A stretch of 64,000 nt of DNA from Porticoccaceae bacterium (GTDB lineage: Bacteria; Pseudomonadota; Gammaproteobacteria; Pseudomonadales; Porticoccaceae), in contig JAGPUQ010000011.1 of assembly GCA_018069525.1 (NCBI GenBank), positions 62,001 to 126,000 on the forward strand, read 5' to 3'. How positions within the stretch are numbered: the first letter of the stretch is position 1; each line of letters opens with the position of its first letter. The position numbers and the translations under genes were made by a program. The notes beneath the pieces are model-generated. The model was given only the letters and a program-made list of their open reading frames with translations, was not told where the DNA came from and did no database searches. Of this stretch, positions 1 to 9,644 are shown one piece after another.

Positions 1-1
1 C

Positions 2-94
2 AGGCTGATGGCTCCTACTTATGATACCTCCTTTGTCAAAAATCAAATACTGAAACATCCTAACCGAGAGTATCTGCGTGAAAAATTTGTCTAA
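2..94 (+). CDS. 3' end of an unidentified upstream gene (partial)
   Basis: An open frame enters from the left edge and stops at TAA 92-94. The visible tail is about 30 residues and ends in NREYLREKFV. It overlaps the GTG start of the next gene by 17 bases, in a different frame, which suggests translational coupling within one operon. Too little is visible to assign a family. It could be a chance open frame, but the tight overlap and the absence of any other signal in the first 77 bases favour a real C-terminus. Confidence 0.45.
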   Translation, partial: RLMAPTYDTSFVKNQILKHPNREYLREKFV

Positions 95-896
95 TAAAGT
101 GGCTGTTATTACCGGAGCAGCATCCGGAATTGGGCGAGCCCTCTGCGTGGAGCTGGCCGGACAGGGAGTTGATATTGCTCTCTGCGATACTGACACCGAA
201 GGTTTACTTACCACTCAGCAAGAAATTCTCTCACTGGGCCGAAAAGCGTCCATCCACCAGATCGACGTGTCAGATCGTAAGGCTATGGAAGCATTACCGG
301 AGCAGGTACTTGCGGAACATGAGCACGTTCACATCCTGATAAATAACGCAGGCGTCTCGTTTATGGACACCGTCGAGCACGCCAGCGTAGAAGATTTTGA
401 ATGGATTTTCGCCATTAATTTTTGGGGGGTGCTCTACGGCAGCAAATTTTTCCTGCCCCACTTACTTAAAGAAGAAGAAAGCCATTTGGTCAATATTTCC
501 AGCGTTTACGGTCTTATCGGTGTTCCGTGCCAAGCGGGCTACTGCGCGACCAAATTTGCAGTACGCGGCTTTACCGAATCTTTACGCCAGGAAATGCTTG
601 GTCGCTCTTTAGGCGTAACCTCTGTTCATCCGGGAGGGGTGGACACCAATATTGCTCGCAGTAGCCGTTTTACCCAGGGTTTCGATGTGGGGTCGAGTGA
701 AGAGCTGGCGACATATTTTAAGCGTGTCGCCATCACCAGCCCTGAACGAGCCGCACAGACCATCATCAAGGGTATACGAAAAAAACACCCTCGAGTCATC
801 GTCGGTCGCGACGCCCGATTTCTTGACCGTGTCCAACGACTGTTCCCGATTCTCTACCCAAAATTTATTAGCTGGGTGACGCCCAAGCCAAGATAA
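78..896 (+). CDS. Short-chain dehydrogenase/reductase (SDR)
   Basis: A classical SDR of 272 residues, predicted to interconvert an alcohol and a ketone with NAD(P)H in the cytoplasm. The cofactor-binding TGAASGIG lies at residues 12-19, NNAG at 89-92, the catalytic serine in NISS around 141-142 and the YxxxK dyad at Y155/K159. The start is GTG at 78, preceded by a weak GAGAG ribosome site at 66-70. It overlaps the end of the upstream frame and is followed by a TonB-dependent receptor in the same direction. With the nearby Baeyer-Villiger monooxygenase, hydrolase and ene-reductase, a role in oxidising a cyclic alcohol before ring oxygenation is plausible, but the substrate cannot be read from sequence. 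The family call is firm and the pathway is inference. Confidence 0.9.
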   Translation: MKNLSNKVAVITGAASGIGRALCVELAGQGVDIALCDTDTEGLLTTQQEILSLGRKASIHQIDVSDRKAMEALPEQVLAEHEHVHILINNAGVSFMDTVEHASVEDFEWIFAINFWGVLYGSKFFLPHLLKEEESHLVNISSVYGLIGVPCQAGYCATKFAVRGFTESLRQEMLGRSLGVTSVHPGGVDTNIARSSRFTQGFDVGSSEELATYFKRVAITSPERAAQTIIKGIRKKHPRVIVGRDARFLDRVQRLFPILYPKFISWVTPKPR

Positions 897-1072
897 AGCG
901 AAGAATCCGGCAAAAGCCTACCGTCAAAGCTCACGTAATAAGCGTGCGCTCGTAATAATAACCAATCCGGCACTGGCTCGCTTTCTAGGCAATTTGGCCG
1001 GATCACCGCTGTCTTCCCGGCAAGCTAATTTTGATAATAGGCTGGATAACTACAACAACTGCCGAGGGAATT

Positions 1073-3535
1073 ATGATTACCCAACACCGTAGCTCGCTAA
1101 CCACCTCTAAACGCCCCCTTATTCTGAGCCTATTACCAACCGCTCTTACCGGGCTGTCTCTAGGCATCCTCCCAGTCGCAACGCTGTCTGCCGATCTCGT
1201 ATTGGAAGAGGTCGTAGTCACGGCGCAAAAGAGGACAGAATCCCTGCAAGACGTCCCCATCTCGGTGAGTACTTTTACCGGCGAGAAGATGGAAGATGCC
1301 GGGATCAATAATATGAATGAGATGTCGGCCTACATCCCTAACTTCCAGCAATCCGTGTCTCCCATTGGGTCTTATGTGGTGATTAGGGGGATTAGCTCAG
1401 GATTGAACTACGGGTTTGAGCAATCTGTGGTGCCCTACATGGACGACATTTCCCTGGGTCGATCTGTGTTGTCACGTATTCCCTTCATGGATCTCGAGCG
1501 AGTGGAAGTACTCCGTGGCCCTCAAAATGTGCTGTTTGGCAAAAACTCTATTGGTGGTGCGCTCTCTATGATCACCGCTAAACCCACTGAAGAATTTGAA
1601 GGTTCATTTCAAATTGAATACGAACCGGAATACAACCAGCAGGAACAGGTTTTAGTGCTTTCCGGCCCACTGACGGACAGCCTTCGCGGCCGTTTAGCCG
1701 TGCGCCACGCCACGGACGATGGTTATTTTAAAAATGACAGCAACGGTAACGACGAAGCGGAAACCAAAGAATTGGGGGTTCGAGCCACCGTTGCCTGGGA
1801 TGTTACCGAGAATTTTGAGGCAACCCTAAAAGTGGAGCGTGATAAATATGACTTTAACGGTCGACCGGAAGAAATTCTGTTTGCCTACGGTGCAGGTACG
1901 ACTCCTGCAACAAATCCATTCGGGGTGCCTGTGGGTAGCACCTATCCACAGATCGCCCAACTCATTGGTGCCACTGTCGGACAGGATGTCGGCGCAGATG
2001 AAACCAGCCAAAACTATCGCCGCAATAGTAATTTTAATTCCTTTAATGAAGTCGAAGTTGATCACGCCACTCTGACAACGAACTGGGATATGGAAAGCGG
2101 TATTCAAATGACCACCGTGAGCGGCTGGATCGAGTACGACGATAATTTTCATTACGATGGAGATCTTTCAGGCATTGACGTTTTTACTTACGGCGTCCCT
2201 CAAGGTTACGAACAGTTTAGCCAGGAGATTCGTTTCACCTCACCCAGTGATCAGAAAATCGAATGGATCGGCGGTGCTTTCTATCAAAGCTCTGAGCAGC
2301 AGGGTACCGGCAACTTCTATGTTGATGATGAAAATTTAATTACCGCTCTGGGCGCTCTGGGTACACTCATTGCAGATCCGAATCTTGCCGCCTTATCGAA
2401 TGTGGCTGACCTCCAAAGCATCCAGCAATACGACGCAGAAAGCGATTTGTGGGCGGTATTTGGCCAGGCCACCTGGCATGTCAGCGATGTCTTTCGCCTG
2501 ACCCTGGGCTTGCGCTACACCGAGGAAGAAAAAGAGGCCGAACGCTCGATCAATGTGTTTAATTCAAACGGCGTGTTTGACCCAACTCAAGCCATTTTTG
2601 GCAGCCTTATATTTGGTGTCGACTACCAAAACCTGGGTGAACTCAGTGCCACCACCCCGCTAGGAGCTTTCCCGCAGGGCTACTTTCCCATACATAAGCT
2701 CAAGGGAGATCGAGACGAGGAATCCTTCACCCCTACGGTTATAGCTGAATGGGATGTCAATGAGGACATCATGTTGTACCTGACGTATTCAGAAGGTTTT
2801 AAAGCCGGGGGTTTTGACGACCGAGGTATTCGGGCAAACAACTTTGAGTTTGAAGACGAAACGGTCACCAGCTATGAGGTTGGCATGAAAGGCGCCTTCT
2901 GGGATGGCCGCGCCGAACTTAACGTAGCGTATTTCTATACGGAGTACGACGACCTGCAAGTCAGCGTGTTCGACGGCAATCTCGGATTTACCGTTGGCAA
3001 TGCAGCACAGAGCACGGCTTCTGGTCTCGAATTTGACGGTCGTATTCTGCTGTCCGAAAACCTCGTGCTATCAGGATCGCTGGGTTATCTGGATTTTGAA
3101 TTCGACTCCTGGAAAGATGCCACTTGCCCGCCCGTTGTAACGCTGAACACTGGTGCAACGACCTGTGACAATACCGGAAAACGAAATATTTATACTCCGG
3201 AATGGTCCTACAGCGCCAGCCTGGATTACACCACGGCATTAACCTCCGGGCTCGATCTACATGCTACTGTTGATGTTAGCTTTAAAGACAAACAATTTGT
3301 CGAGGCGACTTTGAATTCGGACCTGGAGCAAGACTCATACACCAAAATAAATGCTCGCCTGGCCCTGGAAACAGAACAATGGTCTGTCGCGCTGGTCGGA
3401 AAAAACCTGACTGACGAAGAAGTCGTTAGTTTCGCTGCCGACACCCCTCTTTCCAATGTTTCGGGTGCGCCATCTTACTCAGGCTACATGGAGCGTCCTC
3501 GTACTGTGGCGCTACAGTTTCGACACAACTTTTAA
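1073..3535 (+). CDS. TonB-dependent outer-membrane receptor
   Basis: A ligand-gated outer-membrane beta-barrel of about 820 residues. After a basic, hydrophobic signal peptide (roughly residues 1-40, ending near LSADL) comes a TonB box-like LEEVVVTAQKR, then a plug domain with VPISVSTFTGEKM and LRGPQNVLFGKNSIGGA, and a long barrel ending in RHNF with the usual terminal phenylalanine. The frame is open to a TTG at 1031, but the ATG at 1073 has a GAGGGA ribosome site just upstream and gives a clean signal peptide. Receptors with this EEVVVTAQKR pattern are common in aquatic proteobacteria and carry diverse organic ligands as well as siderophores. Next to catabolic genes, uptake of a hydrophobic organic substrate is the likelier role. 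A strong hairpin follows at 3555-3593. Confidence 0.92.
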   Translation: MITQHRSSLTTSKRPLILSLLPTALTGLSLGILPVATLSADLVLEEVVVTAQKRTESLQDVPISVSTFTGEKMEDAGINNMNEMSAYIPNFQQSVSPIGSYVVIRGISSGLNYGFEQSVVPYMDDISLGRSVLSRIPFMDLERVEVLRGPQNVLFGKNSIGGALSMITAKPTEEFEGSFQIEYEPEYNQQEQVLVLSGPLTDSLRGRLAVRHATDDGYFKNDSNGNDEAETKELGVRATVAWDVTENFEATLKVERDKYDFNGRPEEILFAYGAGTTPATNPFGVPVGSTYPQIAQLIGATVGQDVGADETSQNYRRNSNFNSFNEVEVDHATLTTNWDMESGIQMTTVSGWIEYDDNFHYDGDLSGIDVFTYGVPQGYEQFSQEIRFTSPSDQKIEWIGGAFYQSSEQQGTGNFYVDDENLITALGALGTLIADPNLAALSNVADLQSIQQYDAESDLWAVFGQATWHVSDVFRLTLGLRYTEEEKEAERSINVFNSNGVFDPTQAIFGSLIFGVDYQNLGELSATTPLGAFPQGYFPIHKLKGDRDEESFTPTVIAEWDVNEDIMLYLTYSEGFKAGGFDDRGIRANNFEFEDETVTSYEVGMKGAFWDGRAELNVAYFYTEYDDLQVSVFDGNLGFTVGNAAQSTASGLEFDGRILLSENLVLSGSLGYLDFEFDSWKDATCPPVVTLNTGATTCDNTGKRNIYTPEWSYSASLDYTTALTSGLDLHATVDVSFKDKQFVEATLNSDLEQDSYTKINARLALETEQWSVALVGKNLTDEEVVSFAADTPLSNVSGAPSYSGYMERPRTVALQFRHNF

Positions 3536-3554
3536 TCCTCCAACTATCACATAG

Positions 3555-3593
3555 CTTGGTCACGCTGTGCCGTACGGGTACAGCGTGACCAAG
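3555..3593 (+). terminator. Strong hairpin after the TonB receptor gene
   Basis: A perfect 14-bp stem (3555-3568 with 3580-3593) encloses an 11-base loop. It lies 19 bases after the receptor stop codon. The nearest T-rich stretch (ATTTTTAT) begins about a dozen bases further on, so it is not a textbook intrinsic terminator in the forward direction. It sits between convergent genes and may protect or end both transcripts. Confidence 0.55.
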
Positions 3594-3673
3594 TGCTTAC
3601 CCTGATTTTTATTGGCTGATAAGTGTTTATCAAACAACACAGATGGTTTTTAGCAAGCAGACTCTAGTGCGCG

Positions 3674-4699
3674 TTAAGCAGAGGCTTCAGAACGGCTTTT
3701 TGAGGCTTGCCGGTATTGCGTAGGGGTGGTTCCAGACCAACGTTTAAATGCTTGCGCGAAACTATTCGCGTCAGAAAACCCGCATAAGTCCGAGATTACA
3801 TTTACCTTAAGTTCGGATTCCTTTAAATATTCCTTGGCAACTTCAAATCGAGTTTCATCTATAGCCGCCTGAAAAGTGGTTTTTTTATCGAGCAATTTCC
3901 TTCTTAAGGTTCGTGACGACACCCCAAGATGGGATGCAATTTGTTCTATACCAGGAAACACCCCTGGCCGCTCCTTTATGAGCATTTTAACTTCATTAAC
4001 AATGTCATATTCCGAAACTAACTTAGCAGATAAGCGCTGACACAGACCTTCAAGAGCATTCTTGGTGCTCGGATCGAAGTTTGGCAGTGGGGTATCAATA
4101 TATTCGACTGGGTAACATAGTTTTGCTAAGGGCTTATCGAAGTAAACTGGACAGTTAAATAACTCTGTATAACGCTCCTTATACCCTGGGTTAGGGAAAT
4201 TCAAGTGAACCTCTACAGGATAAACAGATTCGCCTAGCAATTGCACAACACTGTTTTGCACCGCCATGAATTCCCAGTCGATCGCTATTCGTTCCATATC
4301 ACCTTGCATCGAGGTACTCAGTATTTTCCAGGAAAAATATTTACCATTAATTTCAGTATCGACTCGAATAAAGGAATTATAAATTTCGCGATATTTTTTA
4401 TTAACAACTGCCGAATGCCGTAATGTTGGAGAGGTTAGCCCAAGATAACCAATCGCCCCTATATCCAGCATAGAGAATGACTGGCCTAACTCTAAGCCCA
4501 GTGTCGGTCGGTTGATGGCAGTGCTAATTTGACGGAAAAACTGCAGGAATTGGGTCTCGGTTAAAAGCGTAGGTTCTTTCTTAATTAAATCGGGGTCGAT
4601 ACCAGCGTTGCGCAAAAGACGTTCTGCGCAAAAACCTTCGTTTTCTACAAAGGCAGTCAGGTACCTGATCAGGTAACTGAATTGCAAGATTTTTTTCAT
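3674..4699 (-). CDS. AraC-family transcriptional regulator (OruR/ArgR-like architecture)
   Basis: A DNA-binding regulator of about 341 residues. The first ~190 residues match the 'Arabinose_bd-like' N-terminal domain found in AraC relatives such as OruR and VirS. The C-terminal ~100 residues form the double helix-turn-helix, with IEQIASHLGVSSRTLRRKL followed by the second-helix signature GFSDANSFAQAFKRW and the usual PTQYR end. The frame extends to a TTG at 4720, but ATG 4699 (MKKILQ) is the more ordinary start. It lies between the receptor gene and the monooxygenase/hydrolase pair, so it is the natural candidate to control the cluster in response to its substrate. That assignment is inferred from position only. 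Confidence 0.88.
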   Translation of the reverse strand: MKKILQFSYLIRYLTAFVENEGFCAERLLRNAGIDPDLIKKEPTLLTETQFLQFFRQISTAINRPTLGLELGQSFSMLDIGAIGYLGLTSPTLRHSAVVNKKYREIYNSFIRVDTEINGKYFSWKILSTSMQGDMERIAIDWEFMAVQNSVVQLLGESVYPVEVHLNFPNPGYKERYTELFNCPVYFDKPLAKLCYPVEYIDTPLPNFDPSTKNALEGLCQRLSAKLVSEYDIVNEVKMLIKERPGVFPGIEQIASHLGVSSRTLRRKLLDKKTTFQAAIDETRFEVAKEYLKESELKVNVISDLCGFSDANSFAQAFKRWSGTTPTQYRQASKSRSEASA

Positions 4700-4909
4700 G
4701 GTAACCCAGCCTACGTGCAAAACATCGAATACAGTATATACCCTGAAGCCTGGAAGGGTACCGACACAACAGGGCTGGCCGTTATCGAATGTCTGAAGAT
4801 CGGCTGTTCATTAAGGCGGGAATGTAAAACCAGGCGACATAACTTTTAGAGATAAAAAATCGAACTGTAGCGTCGTCTAGATATAGCTGGATTTCTGGCT
4901 AGTTTGTAA

Positions 4910-6412
4910 CTAGCGCTGGCCCATGACCTTATGGTATTCCTTCTGATCAAAGCGACGGGTGGCAAGACGAAATTGCCATGAAAATCCTGGCCAAAGCGTG
5001 GTTATCTTGCCGTTACTGGCCTGGTACCAGCTTTTACAACCACTGCTCCACACCATTTTTTTCATTTTTCGCTCAATTCGGGCATTAAATGTATCCTGGC
5101 ATTCCTGAATAACATCCACGTATTTTAGGTTTTTATCAAGAATTAGCTGAATACCCTGCAGGATGTAGTGAATTTGCGATTCGATATAGTAGACCATGGA
5201 TGTACTACCGCTGCCGGTGTTTGGCCCCATCATAATAAACAAGTTAGGAAAACCCGAAACGGTGGTTCCCCGGTGGGCTTCGGCACCATCGCGCCACTGT
5301 TCGTTCAAAGAAGCCCCGTTCAAACCAATAATCTCGAAGGGCGCGGCAGCCGTCGGAACGTCAAACCCGGTGGCAGCAATAATAACATCGAACGGATATT
5401 CGGTGCCTTCTTTGGTAACCACGCCACTTTTATTAATTTCGAGAATAGGGTCGGTGACTAGATCAACGTTGGATTTGGAGAGCGTTGAATACCAGTCGTT
5501 GGTCAACAAAATACGTTTACAACCTACTTTAAATTCCGGGGTCACCTTTTTTTTGAGGATCGGGTCTGAAATATAATGATTAATATTACGAAGCCCTTCC
5601 TTCTCCAGTAATTTGGATAAAAACGTATCGAAAATAATGAGCGGCGCGCGCACTTCATTGAGTAAATAGATATACCCTCGATATAATTTTTGAATAAACG
5701 GCACCCGACCTAACATATTCTTTGTGCCTTGCCGGTAAGGTTTATCTGCTTTTGGCACTACCCAGGGTGCCGTACGCTGAAAGACCGTGAGGTTTTTTAT
5801 TAGAGGAGCGATGGCCGGTACTACCTGTATCGCACTGGCACCGGTTCCAATAACGCCGATACGCTTATTTTCAAGTGGATAATCATGATCCCACTGTGCG
5901 GTATGCATAATTTTTCCAGCAAAGGTGTCAATCCCCTTTATTGAAGGTAATGCGGGATTGCTTAATGCACCACACGCCGTCACAAGCACCTGAGCGGTAA
6001 AGTGTTCACCGTGAGCACTTTGCAGAGTCCAGCGCCCGGTATTTTCTGCAAATGTTGCGCGATTTATCGGTGTATTGAGGCGAATATGTTTGCGTAACTG
6101 GTATTTTTCTACGCAGTGCAACATATAGTCCTGTATTTCCTGCTGGGGCGAAAAGGTGCGAGACCAGTTTGGGTTTTTCTCAAATGAAAATGAGTAAAGG
6201 TGTGATTGCACATCGCAAGCCGCGCCGGGATAAGTGTTGTCCCGCCAGGTTCCACCAATTTCTCCAGCACGCTCCAAAATGATAAATGAATGAATGCCTT
6301 GCTGTTTCAGTTTAATCGCTGCGCCCACGCCAGAGAAACCCGTGCCAACGATAATAATACGGTGATCATTGGTCTCACTAAAATTATTAGAAATATCTTG
6401 CTCGTTGCCCAT
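4910..6412 (-). CDS. Baeyer-Villiger-type flavin-containing monooxygenase
   Basis: A FAD- and NADPH-dependent monooxygenase of about 500 residues that would insert oxygen next to a ketone to give an ester or lactone. A FAD-binding GTGFSG lies near residue 23. The Baeyer-Villiger fingerprint FxGxxxHxxxW is intact (F164, G166, H170, W174, in FAGKIMHTAQW), followed by the NADPH-binding GTGASA near 189. Later come ATGFD and a C-terminal GPNTGSGSTS stretch typical of the group. The frame runs to ATG 6442, but ATG 6412 has a GAGGGCAG ribosome site at good distance, whereas the outer ATG has none. The hydrolase gene lies about 100 bases upstream on the same strand, so the two are probably co-transcribed. 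The family is clear and the substrate unknown. Confidence 0.92.
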   Translation of the reverse strand: MGNEQDISNNFSETNDHRIIIVGTGFSGVGAAIKLKQQGIHSFIILERAGEIGGTWRDNTYPGAACDVQSHLYSFSFEKNPNWSRTFSPQQEIQDYMLHCVEKYQLRKHIRLNTPINRATFAENTGRWTLQSAHGEHFTAQVLVTACGALSNPALPSIKGIDTFAGKIMHTAQWDHDYPLENKRIGVIGTGASAIQVVPAIAPLIKNLTVFQRTAPWVVPKADKPYRQGTKNMLGRVPFIQKLYRGYIYLLNEVRAPLIIFDTFLSKLLEKEGLRNINHYISDPILKKKVTPEFKVGCKRILLTNDWYSTLSKSNVDLVTDPILEINKSGVVTKEGTEYPFDVIIAATGFDVPTAAAPFEIIGLNGASLNEQWRDGAEAHRGTTVSGFPNLFIMMGPNTGSGSTSMVYYIESQIHYILQGIQLILDKNLKYVDVIQECQDTFNARIERKMKKMVWSSGCKSWYQASNGKITTLWPGFSWQFRLATRRFDQKEYHKVMGQR

Positions 6413-6509
6413 TACTGCCCTCACGCTACCATCCAAAGTCATAAAAAATAATAACGTAATTGCGGTATCACGGTAATCGCCTGGATGGACAAATTACCTT
6501 GTTAAGCGG

Positions 6510-7457
6510 TCAAGGAGTAATTAGCGGAGGCAAGCAATTAGGTTTGTCCAGCGTGACAAAATGCGTCGTGCCCGCCACTTCTACGATATCGAGCGAACTC
6601 TTGGCGTAACCTGCGCTTTTTAGCATGGAATCGCGGTCAAGCACTCGCTCGTCCTCCCCGACTAATAGAGTGCCGCGCGGGATAAGCTGGTACACGTCAT
6701 ATTGGCGCGTTCGCGCCCAGGATCGAATCGCTTTTGAGTTTTTTACTAAAGTTGAATAATGTTTGGGGGTAGAGGCCAAGCCAGCTAAAATTTCTCGCTT
6801 TCGCTCACTTCCCAGGTCGCCATAAAGGTGTTCGCCGTAAGCAGTTAATGGCAGCCTTGCAAGCAAGGGTAACGTGAAGGGCAACAACCAAATACCCAGG
6901 GGAGAGAAGTTTCTCTCCGTATTGGGATGAAAGCCGATCTGCGGCAGCACGGGTGCCTCCAGAATAAATTCAACATTTTGATGTAACTCTGGTCGCTGAA
7001 TAGCTGCTTCCAGAATGACCGCACCACCTCGAGAGTGGCCATGTAGGCGAATGATCTCAGTTGAAGGTAAATGCTCTAAAGCCTGATTAATAACGGCCGC
7101 ATCGTATTCGATCGTCGCGGGTTCATAGACAATACTCTTTTCCCAGGAGGGGCGTTGGATTTGGGCATCGTTAACGGGAACGTGGTAATCCGCGCTGGTA
7201 ATAAGAATGAGCTCTATCTCTGAATCGGTATATAAGCCAGTAAAATATCGCTGATCTTCCATAAATCCGTGCATGGCAATGACCGTCGCTTTTGGAGGCA
7301 CTGCGCTGGCTCTGACGGCAATAACTGACTCCCCGATTGCATATAAAATACCATCAAAGGGCTCACTGTTTTTTTTGGTCTGAAGGCGATGCAGGCCCAA
7401 TTGGCGCAAGATGATAACGGTAGCAACTAATATGGCGGCGATAAAAATATTATTCAT
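6510..7457 (-). CDS. Alpha/beta hydrolase with N-terminal membrane segment
   Basis: A 315-residue serine hydrolase. Residues 2-20 form a hydrophobic helix (signal anchor), followed by an alpha/beta-hydrolase fold with the oxyanion motif HGF near 63-65, the nucleophile elbow GHSRGG (S142), a likely acid in VGEDERVLDRD, and a late histidine in GTTHFVTL. It would cleave an ester, lactone or similar bond at the cytoplasmic membrane. It is upstream of and co-directional with the Baeyer-Villiger monooxygenase, the enzyme that makes such esters or lactones, so a coupled ring-opening role is a reasonable inference. The nucleophile and histidine are seen directly; substrate specificity is not. Confidence 0.8.
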   Translation of the reverse strand: MNNIFIAAILVATVIILRQLGLHRLQTKKNSEPFDGILYAIGESVIAVRASAVPPKATVIAMHGFMEDQRYFTGLYTDSEIELILITSADYHVPVNDAQIQRPSWEKSIVYEPATIEYDAAVINQALEHLPSTEIIRLHGHSRGGAVILEAAIQRPELHQNVEFILEAPVLPQIGFHPNTERNFSPLGIWLLPFTLPLLARLPLTAYGEHLYGDLGSERKREILAGLASTPKHYSTLVKNSKAIRSWARTRQYDVYQLIPRGTLLVGEDERVLDRDSMLKSAGYAKSSLDIVEVAGTTHFVTLDKPNCLPPLITP

Positions 7458-7716
7458 TGTTTTGGCAAGCCTGTTATTTTTTGGTCACATCCCGGTATGT
7501 CGTTACCGAGTTTAATGAAAGGATAACCTCTTAAGACCTGTTTCGACATCGGTATAGCGGACATGAGATCGTATGGAAAGGCCAACGGTAAATTACCGTC
7601 CGAGAGATTAAACTTAGATATTTTACAAATTAAACCAACTGCCTAAATTGACCCGGGGCAACCTTCCCACGTACTATCCGGGCCAAATTATGATTTCACC
7701 CCGAGATTTATTACAC

Positions 7717-8814
7717 ATGCAGTCTTTATTCGATCCCCTATCGTTCCATCATGGTCCGACTCTGAAAAACCGTTTTGCTCTTGCACCACTGACCAACCTG
7801 CAAAGCCATAAGGATGGTCGCCTGTCCGATGACGAACACAAGTGGTTGACCATGCGCGCCGAGGGCGGTTTTGCTTTAACTATGAGCTGCGCCGCCCATG
7901 TACAGGCCGTCGGACAGGGCTTCCCTGGGCAGCTGGGTATTTTTTCCGACGCCCACCTCGAAGGCCTAAGCCGCCTGGCCAAAGATATTAAACAACACAA
8001 TAGTCTGGCGGTGATGCAACTGCACCACGCGGGCATGCGTTCTCCGGAAGAACTTATCGGCGGCCAGCCCGTCGCGCCTTCAGACGATGAGGAAACCGGG
8101 GCACGAGCACTATCCACTGCCGAAGTGGAACAACTCATCGAAGATTTTATCGCCGCCGCAGAGCGCGCCGAAAAAGCGGGCTTTGACGGTGTCGAGCTGC
8201 ACGGCGCCCACGGTTATATGCTGTGTCAGTTCTTGAGCGGCGAAAGCAACCGACGCGAGGATCAATATGGCGGTAGCCTGGAAAACAGGGCGAGACCGAT
8301 ATTCGATATTATTACCGGTATTCGCAAACGCTGCCGCAACGACTTCAATATCGGCATCCGCTTATCCCCGGAACGCTTTGGTATGCAATTAATGGAAGTC
8401 ACTGAAGTCGCCCAGGGCCTGATGACGGAAGCCCAAATCGATTACATCGATCTATCGCTGTGGGATGTGTTTAAAGAACCAAACGAAGAGGACTACCAGG
8501 GACGCAGTTTGCTGTCTTATTTTACTAAACTCGAGCGCGGCGACGTACGCATTGGCGTCGCCGGAAAAATCAGGGCGCCGCAAGACGCGCTACGCTGTCT
8601 CGACGCCGGCGCTGATTTTGTTTTACTGGGCAGAGCCGCGATTTTGCATCACGACTTTCCTAAGCTGAGCGCGGCGAATAATAACTTTGTCCCGGTAAGT
8701 AACCCGGTATCGGAGGATTACTTAAGGTCCGAGGGTTTGGGCGAGGCCTTTGTGGAATATATGGGAACCTGGAAGGGCTTTGTGGAACAAACACCTTCGC
8801 CGACAAAAATCTAG
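7717..8814 (+). CDS. Old Yellow Enzyme-family NADH:flavin oxidoreductase
   Basis: An FMN-dependent ene-reductase of about 365 residues with a TIM-barrel fold. It opens with the family start SLFDPL...[13 protein letters not shown], has the substrate-side [13 protein letters not shown], then [16 protein letters not shown] and the phosphate-binding [13 protein letters not shown]-type stretch (here [13 protein letters not shown]). The frame is open to a TTG at 7648 and has an ATG at 7690, but ATG 7717 matches where the family begins. Members reduce activated C=C bonds such as alpha,beta-unsaturated ketones. It is divergent from the hydrolase/monooxygenase pair and fits a pathway handling enones. 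Its stop codon overlaps that of thyA, which runs convergently. Confidence 0.9.
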
Positions 8815-9644
8815 ATCGCTATCGGCGCGGCAATGCCCGGATGGGGATCGTAACCTTCCAAAGTAAAATCGTCATAATCAAAATCAAATATATTGTCGAC
8901 TTTTGGATTGAGAATCATTTTCGGTAATGCGCGGGTGTCCCGCGCCAACTGCTTGTCCGTCTGTTCCAGGTGGTTAGCATATAAATGCGCATCGCCCAGG
9001 GTGTGTATAAATTCACCGGGCTGCAAGCCCACCACCTGCGCAACCATCAGCGTTAATAGCGCGTAGGAAGCAATATTAAAGGGCACGCCAAGAAAAATAT
9101 CGGCGCTGCGCTGGTAAAGCTGGCAACTCAATTTACCTTCCGCAACATAAAACTGGAAAAACGCGTGACAGGGAGCGAGCGCCATGCGGCCCTGCTCCAC
9201 ATTGGCCTGGGGCGAAATACTTTCGTCGGGCAGCTGCGCCGGATTCCAGGCCGACACGATTAAACGCCGAGAATCGGGGCGGCTGCGTAACTGCTCTATC
9301 ACCTCACTAATTTGATCAATGGCGCCGCCGCTGGGCGATGGCCAGGAGCGCCACTGGTAACCATAGACCGGGCCGAGATCGCCGTCGGCAGTGGCCCACT
9401 CGTCCCAAATACTAACTCCGTTGTCGCGCAAATATTGTGTCTTGGTGTCGCCTTTAAGAAACCACAGCAGTTCATAAATAATGGACTTTAAGTGGACTTT
9501 TTTGGTGGTCACCAGGGGGAAACCCGCGGCGAGATCAAAACGCATTTGATGGCCAAACACACTGAGCGTGCCGGTGCCGGTACGGTCGCCCTTTTGTATA
9601 CCGTTGGTCCGCACGTGACGCATTAAATCGAGATATTGACGCAT
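8811..9644 (-). CDS. thyA: Thymidylate synthase
   Basis: Methylates dUMP to dTMP using methylenetetrahydrofolate. The 277-residue protein carries the catalytic cysteine in [12 protein letters not shown] (C159), the dUMP-binding [18 protein letters not shown], the N-terminal [12 protein letters not shown], and the usual ending [14 protein letters not shown]. It is slightly longer than the E. coli enzyme. It follows lgt on the same strand with a short gap, the order seen in many gammaproteobacteria. Its TAG stop shares the CTAG at 8811-8814 with the opposing ene-reductase gene. Confidence 0.98.

Follow-up and report, generated by a model that had tools for sequence, protein, structure and literature searches.

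Gene sets that carry a secondary alcohol through a ketone and an ester to cleavage are already known as a pathway type, the sad pathway being one case. As described for NyZ410, the sad cluster (sadC, sadD, sadA and sadB) comprises a secondary alcohol step, a Baeyer-Villiger monooxygenase (BVMO) and esterase cleavage (PMC10045523, PMC12753306). Here we analyse a group of genes around a BVMO in the Porticoccaceae bacterium assembly GCA_018069525.1, lying at the left end of a stretch of 64,000 nucleotides (contig JAGPUQ010000011.1, positions 62,001 to 126,000) that is called the window throughout. Among described enzymes, the BVMO of Pseudomonas fluorescens DSM 50106 is reported to accept C8-C10 open-chain ketones but not cyclic or aromatic ketones, with the added remark that a divergent BVMO clade including this enzyme may tend toward linear ketones (PMC5407406). 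A Rhodococcus BVMO is reported as converting 2-dodecanone, 2-hexadecanone and 4-phenyl-2-butanone, and not progesterone (PMC12724338). In Thalassolituus on a C28 alkane, a BVMO, an esterase and a TonB receptor are reported to be raised, their locus tags being far apart (PMC6304351). Finally, the virS-mymA locus of Mycobacterium tuberculosis is described as containing a regulator, a BVMO and the esterase LipR, with a link to the cell envelope (PMC10272862, PMC13234193).

The genes considered here lie in the DNA between folA and thyA, which we call the gap. folA is outside the window, beyond its left edge (L009:15198-15737, minus strand), and thyA is at 8811-9644, so that the gap is occupied by six genes; these are also the only non-overlapping open reading frames (ORFs) of at least 100 aa within it. 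The features, in order along the window, are:

78-896, plus strand: short-chain dehydrogenase (SDR), 272 aa; PF00106, E 1.2e-51
1073-3535, plus strand: TonB-dependent receptor (TBDR), 820 aa; plug PF07715 and barrel PF00593
3555-3593, no strand: inverted repeat where the TBDR and AraC genes converge; 17 nt arms, 94%, 5-nt spacer
3674-4720, minus strand: AraC-family regulator; PF12625 (Pfam name Arabinose_bd) and HTH_18
4910-6442, minus strand: type I BVMO, 510 aa; PF00743, E 2.7e-16
6510-7457, minus strand: alpha/beta hydrolase, 315 aa; PF12697, E 1.7e-7; GHSRG elbow
7648-7677, plus strand: promoter-like site of the Old Yellow Enzyme gene, TTGACC-18-TACTAT
7717-8814, plus strand: Old Yellow Enzyme (OYE), 365 aa; PF00724, E 1.1e-60; alternative in-frame starts at 7648 and 7690
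8811-9644: thyA

The layout is thus one of two convergent units (SDR-TBDR running rightward and hydrolase-BVMO-AraC running leftward) plus a rightward OYE gene. The hydrolase gene is on the same strand as the BVMO gene and 67 bp upstream of it. An earlier sequence-only reading had named six genes of these families, and ORFs and Pfam place all six at or near the positions it had given; it had also joined them in a single pathway. We propose that five of the genes (the rightward SDR-TBDR pair and the leftward hydrolase, BVMO and AraC genes) form a block for the uptake of a hydrophobic compound and the cleavage of a ketone, placed between folA and a pre-existing OYE gene, and we consider this the probable reading of the locus. 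A unit of five genes is more likely than one of six. What the comparisons establish is the gene families, the BVMO fingerprints, the linkage of similar genes in relatives and a history of its own for OYE; the insertion as one event, the reactions, the import, the induction and the substrate are what we infer. The TBDR would import a hydrophobic compound, and the AraC protein would sense it. Oxidation of a secondary alcohol by the SDR would yield a ketone, which the BVMO would turn into an ester or lactone by placing oxygen next to the carbonyl group. The hydrolase would then split this product, and the resulting alcohol and acid would pass into general metabolism; these reactions are proposed because of the enzyme families.

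The separation of OYE from the other five genes comes from related genomes. Eight genomes, all from genera g5 and g7, carry an OYE orthologue (73-79%) at the folA site. Six of these (G007, G034, G009, G028, G035 and G020) have OYE between folA and thyA on one contig, and in G018 and G027 it is less than 6 kb from folA, with thyA on a separate contig. The gaps of these eight genomes hold no match to the SDR, AraC, BVMO or hydrolase at E 1e-8, and the TonB receptors that match there do so at merely 22-24% identity. The gap in relatives varies in size between roughly 2 kb and roughly 19 kb, with other genes inside, and in the congeners G001, G002 and G003 thyA directly adjoins folA. The promoter-like site of OYE points the same way. 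Its strict pattern is present in five of the nine OYE loci compared, where chance would give 0.0006 per 150 shuffled bases; L090 and L094 (TACCAT) and L088 (TATTAT, further upstream) have one changed base in the second box, and the site is absent in L096, so that it is kept in seven of the eight relatives. Promoter consensus matches across the region number 11, against 11.8 in shuffles, and since they are no commoner than in shuffles, the weight lies on the conservation of the OYE site. The start at 7648, the first from the ORF tool, overlaps the -35 box of this site, which makes ATG 7717 the likelier OYE start; this start also agrees with the OYE orthologues.

Composition gives a similar picture. 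Measured against the 44 other genes of the window, the G+C content at third codon positions (GC3) of OYE is host-like (z +0.1), and the five other genes all lie below the mean (SDR -1.7, TBDR -1.4, hydrolase -2.1, BVMO -2.7, AraC -4.0). Taken together, the conserved OYE site and the contrasting GC3 suggest that the five genes are a probable insertion between folA and OYE, and that OYE is probably, as judged from these sequence comparisons, the older resident of the site, outside the block.

These results bear directly on the view that all six genes act together to open the ring of a cyclic ketone, steroid or terpenoid, OYE serving as an enone reductase. The families could support such chemistry, and the OYE and hydrolase genes are divergent and about 230-260 bp apart, which would allow shared control. 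The nearest BVMOs of solved structure also include steroid, phenylacetone and cyclohexanone enzymes. However, none of these scores above 255 bits, whereas the best homologues in the order reach 498-579 bits, so at this distance their substrates decide nothing. In addition, OYE stands at the folA site in eight genomes without the other five genes and with its promoter-like site mostly kept, an OYE-like gene (33% alike) is found within 7.5 kb of the BVMO in 1 of the 39 related BVMO loci described below, and the ORFs of the gap include no gene specific to ring compounds. We therefore regard the six-gene ring-opening pathway as quite unlikely, and the inclusion of OYE in the unit, as the sequence-only reading had it, did not stand. 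Synteny, the promoter-like site and composition are the grounds on which OYE was rejected as a pathway member. The comparisons, which bear on the substrate only indirectly, give no evidence for a cyclic, steroid or terpenoid compound.

The BVMO at the centre of the proposed five-gene block has two Rossmann motifs (GxGxxG/A), GTGFSG and GTGASA. Both type I fingerprints are present, GGTWRDNTYPGAACD and FAGKIMHTAQWD, and the FxGxxxHxxxW one, noticed earlier, is indeed intact; the type I definitions are given, in this order, as [G/A]GxWxxxx[F/Y]P[G/M]xxxD and FxGxxxHxxxW[P/D] (PMC5407406). Relatives were sought in a set of 58 genomes (our own, 36 of the genus or family and 21 others from the order) and in a wider set of 390 genomes of the order, where three candidate BVMOs were scored per genome. 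The own assembly (2.73 Mb) has 16 matches resembling flavin-containing monooxygenases. Within the 36 genomes of the genus and family, identity to the BVMO is at most 39% over most of the protein, with partial matches of 45% in G001 and 42% in G034, and the best match in the 58 genomes (46%) is from another family. Matches at E 1e-130 or better occur in 95 of the 390 genomes, our own counted, and the top matches listed show 46-51% identity and come mostly from family f24.

In phylogenetic trees, the window BVMO belongs to a clade of 23 rows, namely itself, 15 from f24, one from f29, three from f17 and one each from f22, f26 and f43, and the own-genome BVMOs L210, L217 and L218 fall outside it. 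Support from the Shimodaira-Hasegawa-like approximate likelihood ratio test (SH-aLRT) is 97 in a tree of 105 rows, which omits the mycobacterial rows of L126-L159 below 365 bits, and 98 in a tree of 82 rows, which omits L125-L159. All trees were quick ones except a careful tree for the TBDR, and long branches were flagged, that of the window included.

The partners of the BVMO can be followed in the same way. The SDR has 42-47% identity to SDRs adjoining related BVMOs in the loci compared. In a tree that omits L177 and L119, it lies in a group of 27 rows (SH-aLRT 94), where 22 of the 26 others are near a BVMO, a sample that is biased, most loci having been fetched for their BVMO. In the hydrolase, the GHSRG elbow and His299 near the C-terminus are invariant across all eight aligned proteins; the acid residue is less clear, there being a Glu where homologues carry Asp, with an Asp adjacent. 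Its N-terminus is hydrophobic as judged by eye. Hydrolase matches are found in 27 of the 390 genomes at E 1e-50 and in five of the 58 at E 1e-8 (our own counted in both), with no other family member among these five and no full-length match in the 36 congeners and family members. It has no match to PF07859, the family of the esterases beside other BVMOs. The best non-own match to the AraC protein across the 390 genomes has 34% identity. The TBDR has a 43% paralogue in the own genome on contig C10, family relatives of up to 45%, and 35-37% identity to the TBDRs of six f24 BVMO loci.

For the 39 best-ranked BVMO matches of the order outside the own genome, the loci were retrieved with their flanks, some of which end at contig edges; ORFs were called greedily, and the calls are wrong at some loci of high GC (L097-L099, L240, L243 and L244). 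Within 3 kb of the BVMO, 26 loci have an SDR of any strength, 20 a strong SDR and 25 a hydrolase, and SDR and hydrolase are both present in 21. The combination of strong SDR, hydrolase and related TonB receptor is seen in 13, all from f24. Within 7.5 kb, a strong TBDR is present in 16 loci, again all f24, and a PF10118 gene in 19. By family, the 16 f24 loci have a strong SDR in 15, a hydrolase in 13 and a TBDR in 16, L190 being arranged differently. The strong SDR is found in 4/6 loci of f29, 1/3 of f21 and 0/4 of f43, where three of the four have a weaker SDR, a hydrolase and an AraC gene. In f17 a hydrolase of the window type lies within 1.4 kb of the BVMO in all three loci, with no SDR, and in a further f17 genome, G177, the hydrolase gene sits on a contig of 8 kb that carries no BVMO. 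The six f20 loci have one hydrolase and one AraC gene, and f26 has PF10118 alone, in one locus. The sequence-only reading had named independent scatter of the genes in relatives as a refuting outcome. By that measure AraC and OYE scatter, and SDR, BVMO, hydrolase and TBDR types partly recur together (21/39 and 13/39 loci). As a control, 20 loci anchored on thyA or folA had no partner genes, although these represent one locus type and make a weak control.

The f24 loci deserve a fuller description. In L160 (G059:C1), Pfam identifies a divergent MerR gene followed by TBDR, START, PF10118, alpha/beta hydrolase, BVMO and SDR genes, and the other f24 loci (among L161-L183) resemble it in ORF length and gene order; a PF10118-like gene is present in 15 of the 16 f24 loci. 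A search of the open-access literature found no description of this MerR-TBDR-START-PF10118-hydrolase-BVMO-SDR locus. The f24-type set of TBDR, hydrolase, BVMO and SDR is together in the window too.

A number of observations weigh against a functional block. The five-gene arrangement of the window was found in no other locus examined, and the co-occurrence counts are dominated by a single lineage, f24, whose hydrolase belongs to a different subfamily and whose START, PF10118 and MerR genes have no counterpart among the ORFs of the gap. The TBDR is closer in identity to TBDRs of family f1 located away from BVMOs (38-45%) than to those of f24, and the careful tree of 23 rows, which omits eight TBDR loci, places it between the f24 and f1 groups. 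An AraC gene is within 3 kb of the BVMO in six of the 39 loci, and all six are nearer to the AraC of G042 than to that of the window. When SDRs were sampled without centring on BVMOs, in the 58 genomes, two of 24 non-own hits (G042:C15 and G048:C13) were near a listed BVMO, as judged by eye. Among 20 lower-scoring BVMO loci of the own genome and family, none has a strong SDR within 3 kb, six have any SDR and six a hydrolase; among 41 distant BVMO loci (33-42%), one has a strong SDR nearby and four have a row of SDR, BVMO and esterase. Two of three annotated plasmid loci likewise lack an SDR and a hydrolase beside the BVMO: a Streptomyces plasmid, and an Aquabacterium plasmid that does have a divergent AraC gene. 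The third, from Deinococcus, is annotated with hydrolase, BVMO, SDR and AraC in a row.

Such points raise the question of whether the six genes are chance neighbours, the gap being an insertion site that gathers unrelated genes, with hydrolase and BVMO at most a functional pair. The gap is indeed variable: genus g7 has other genes there, for example a PepSY protein and a P450 (by Pfam in L091; others by resemblance). The TBDR and AraC are also related, more closely or in other ways, to genes that are not near BVMOs, and the arrangement is unique among the loci examined. Nevertheless, SDR, hydrolase and TBDR recur in f24 near BVMOs of the same clade, and all five genes share a GC3 below the window mean, and we think chance neighbourhood unlikely, though worth keeping in mind.

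Some further features of the site may be recorded. At the g5 and g7 folA sites (L087-L096) the cargo around OYE is variable, and includes by eye a ferredoxin, a reductase and another TonB receptor. The inverted repeat at 3555-3593, missed by the terminator scan, is judging by its structure a possible two-way terminator. The AraC gene may start at ATG 4699 instead of TTG 4720, and there is a near-perfect palindrome at 4657-4680 in the 5' end of its coding region, possibly an autoregulatory site or chance. The neighbours of the TBDR paralogue (L225, G000:C10:64001-82500) resemble, with no family search, ring-hydroxylating and extradiol dioxygenases and hydratase-aldolases, and a P450-like gene is also present. 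To the left of the window (L009:9075-14845), there are by eye ExbD-, TonB-, ExbB- and TPR-like genes, ending about 1.2 kb from the SDR gene, past folA, and in several g5 and g7 genomes ORFs resembling this group adjoin folA.

With regard to mobility, a tblastn search of PLSDB found BVMO homologues in 200 records, several of them chromosome-sized, the best of the 25 listed being 48%. Five of these loci were inspected, of which three (those above) are annotated and two are not. An Acinetobacter record has, by resemblance, a row of AraC, BVMO, SDR and esterase. Plasmid carriage of the block was considered and set aside, since the PLSDB records give no evidence for it. No convincing repeats were seen at the block ends, where transposase genes were not searched for, and the folA-side breakpoint gave no significant similarity. 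Eleven own-genome loci on six other contigs have a GC of 0.48-0.53, which matches the 0.52 of the window, and there is thus no sign of assembly contamination. The congener loci L097-L099, L205, L209, L214 and L216 have a GC of 0.63-0.71, against 0.48-0.53 for the own genome, and the own thyA shares 81-88% with genera g5 and g7, more than the 76-79% that it shares with the congeners.

Baeyer-Villiger genes are readily taken for ring-opening enzymes. Here, synteny sets OYE, a bystander, apart from the genes that likely work together, and suggests a ketone route coupled to a receptor. By analogy with the literature on other BVMOs, from which a preference for open-chain compounds is drawn, an open-chain or lipid-like ketone would be at least as likely a substrate as a terpenoid ring. 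If true, the five-gene block would be a concrete candidate for the import of oily ketones by Gram-negative bacteria; for long-chain alkanes, the import step is called unclear (PMC6304351).

How, then, does the locus compare with known systems? One possibility is that the BVMO-hydrolase pair acts on envelope or foreign compounds, to modify or detoxify them in the manner of mymA, and does not feed growth. The virS-mymA locus, as described, likewise includes a regulator, a BVMO and an esterase (PMC10272862, PMC13234193). In the window, on the other hand, the AraC gene is not divergent from the BVMO gene and is on the same strand, 3' of it, the hydrolase is of a different family, with no PF07859 match, and uptake is suggested by the TonB receptor, which the f24 loci have as well; virS-mymA has further genes and no TonB receptor. 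An envelope or detoxification role is for these reasons highly improbable. We take VirS to be of AraC type and Rv3085 to be an SDR, and the virS-mymA regulator gene is presumably divergent from the BVMO gene. The five-gene block resembles the sad cluster in having dehydrogenase, BVMO and esterase-type genes together, by family, within 7.4 kb. It differs, going by the published description, in having one hydrolase in the gap in place of the two esterases SadA and SadB, and in adding a TonB receptor. In P. fluorescens DSM 50106, esterase and alcohol dehydrogenase genes presumably adjoin the BVMO gene; compared with that pathway as described, the receptor and the AraC gene are extra in the window. 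The f24 loci carry sister BVMOs. In the six compared, the BVMOs are 46-50%, the SDRs 42-44% and the TBDRs 35-37% identical to those of the window; the f24 loci are unlike it in having a single strand, a different hydrolase subfamily, extra genes, and a divergent MerR in place of AraC. We suggest, tentatively, that the two may be versions of one undescribed locus type, in which a Baeyer-Villiger cleavage set is genetically coupled to its own TBDR for a hydrophobic secondary alcohol or ketone. The logic of such a locus would be analogous to that of a polysaccharide-utilisation locus, applied to lipid-like ketones.

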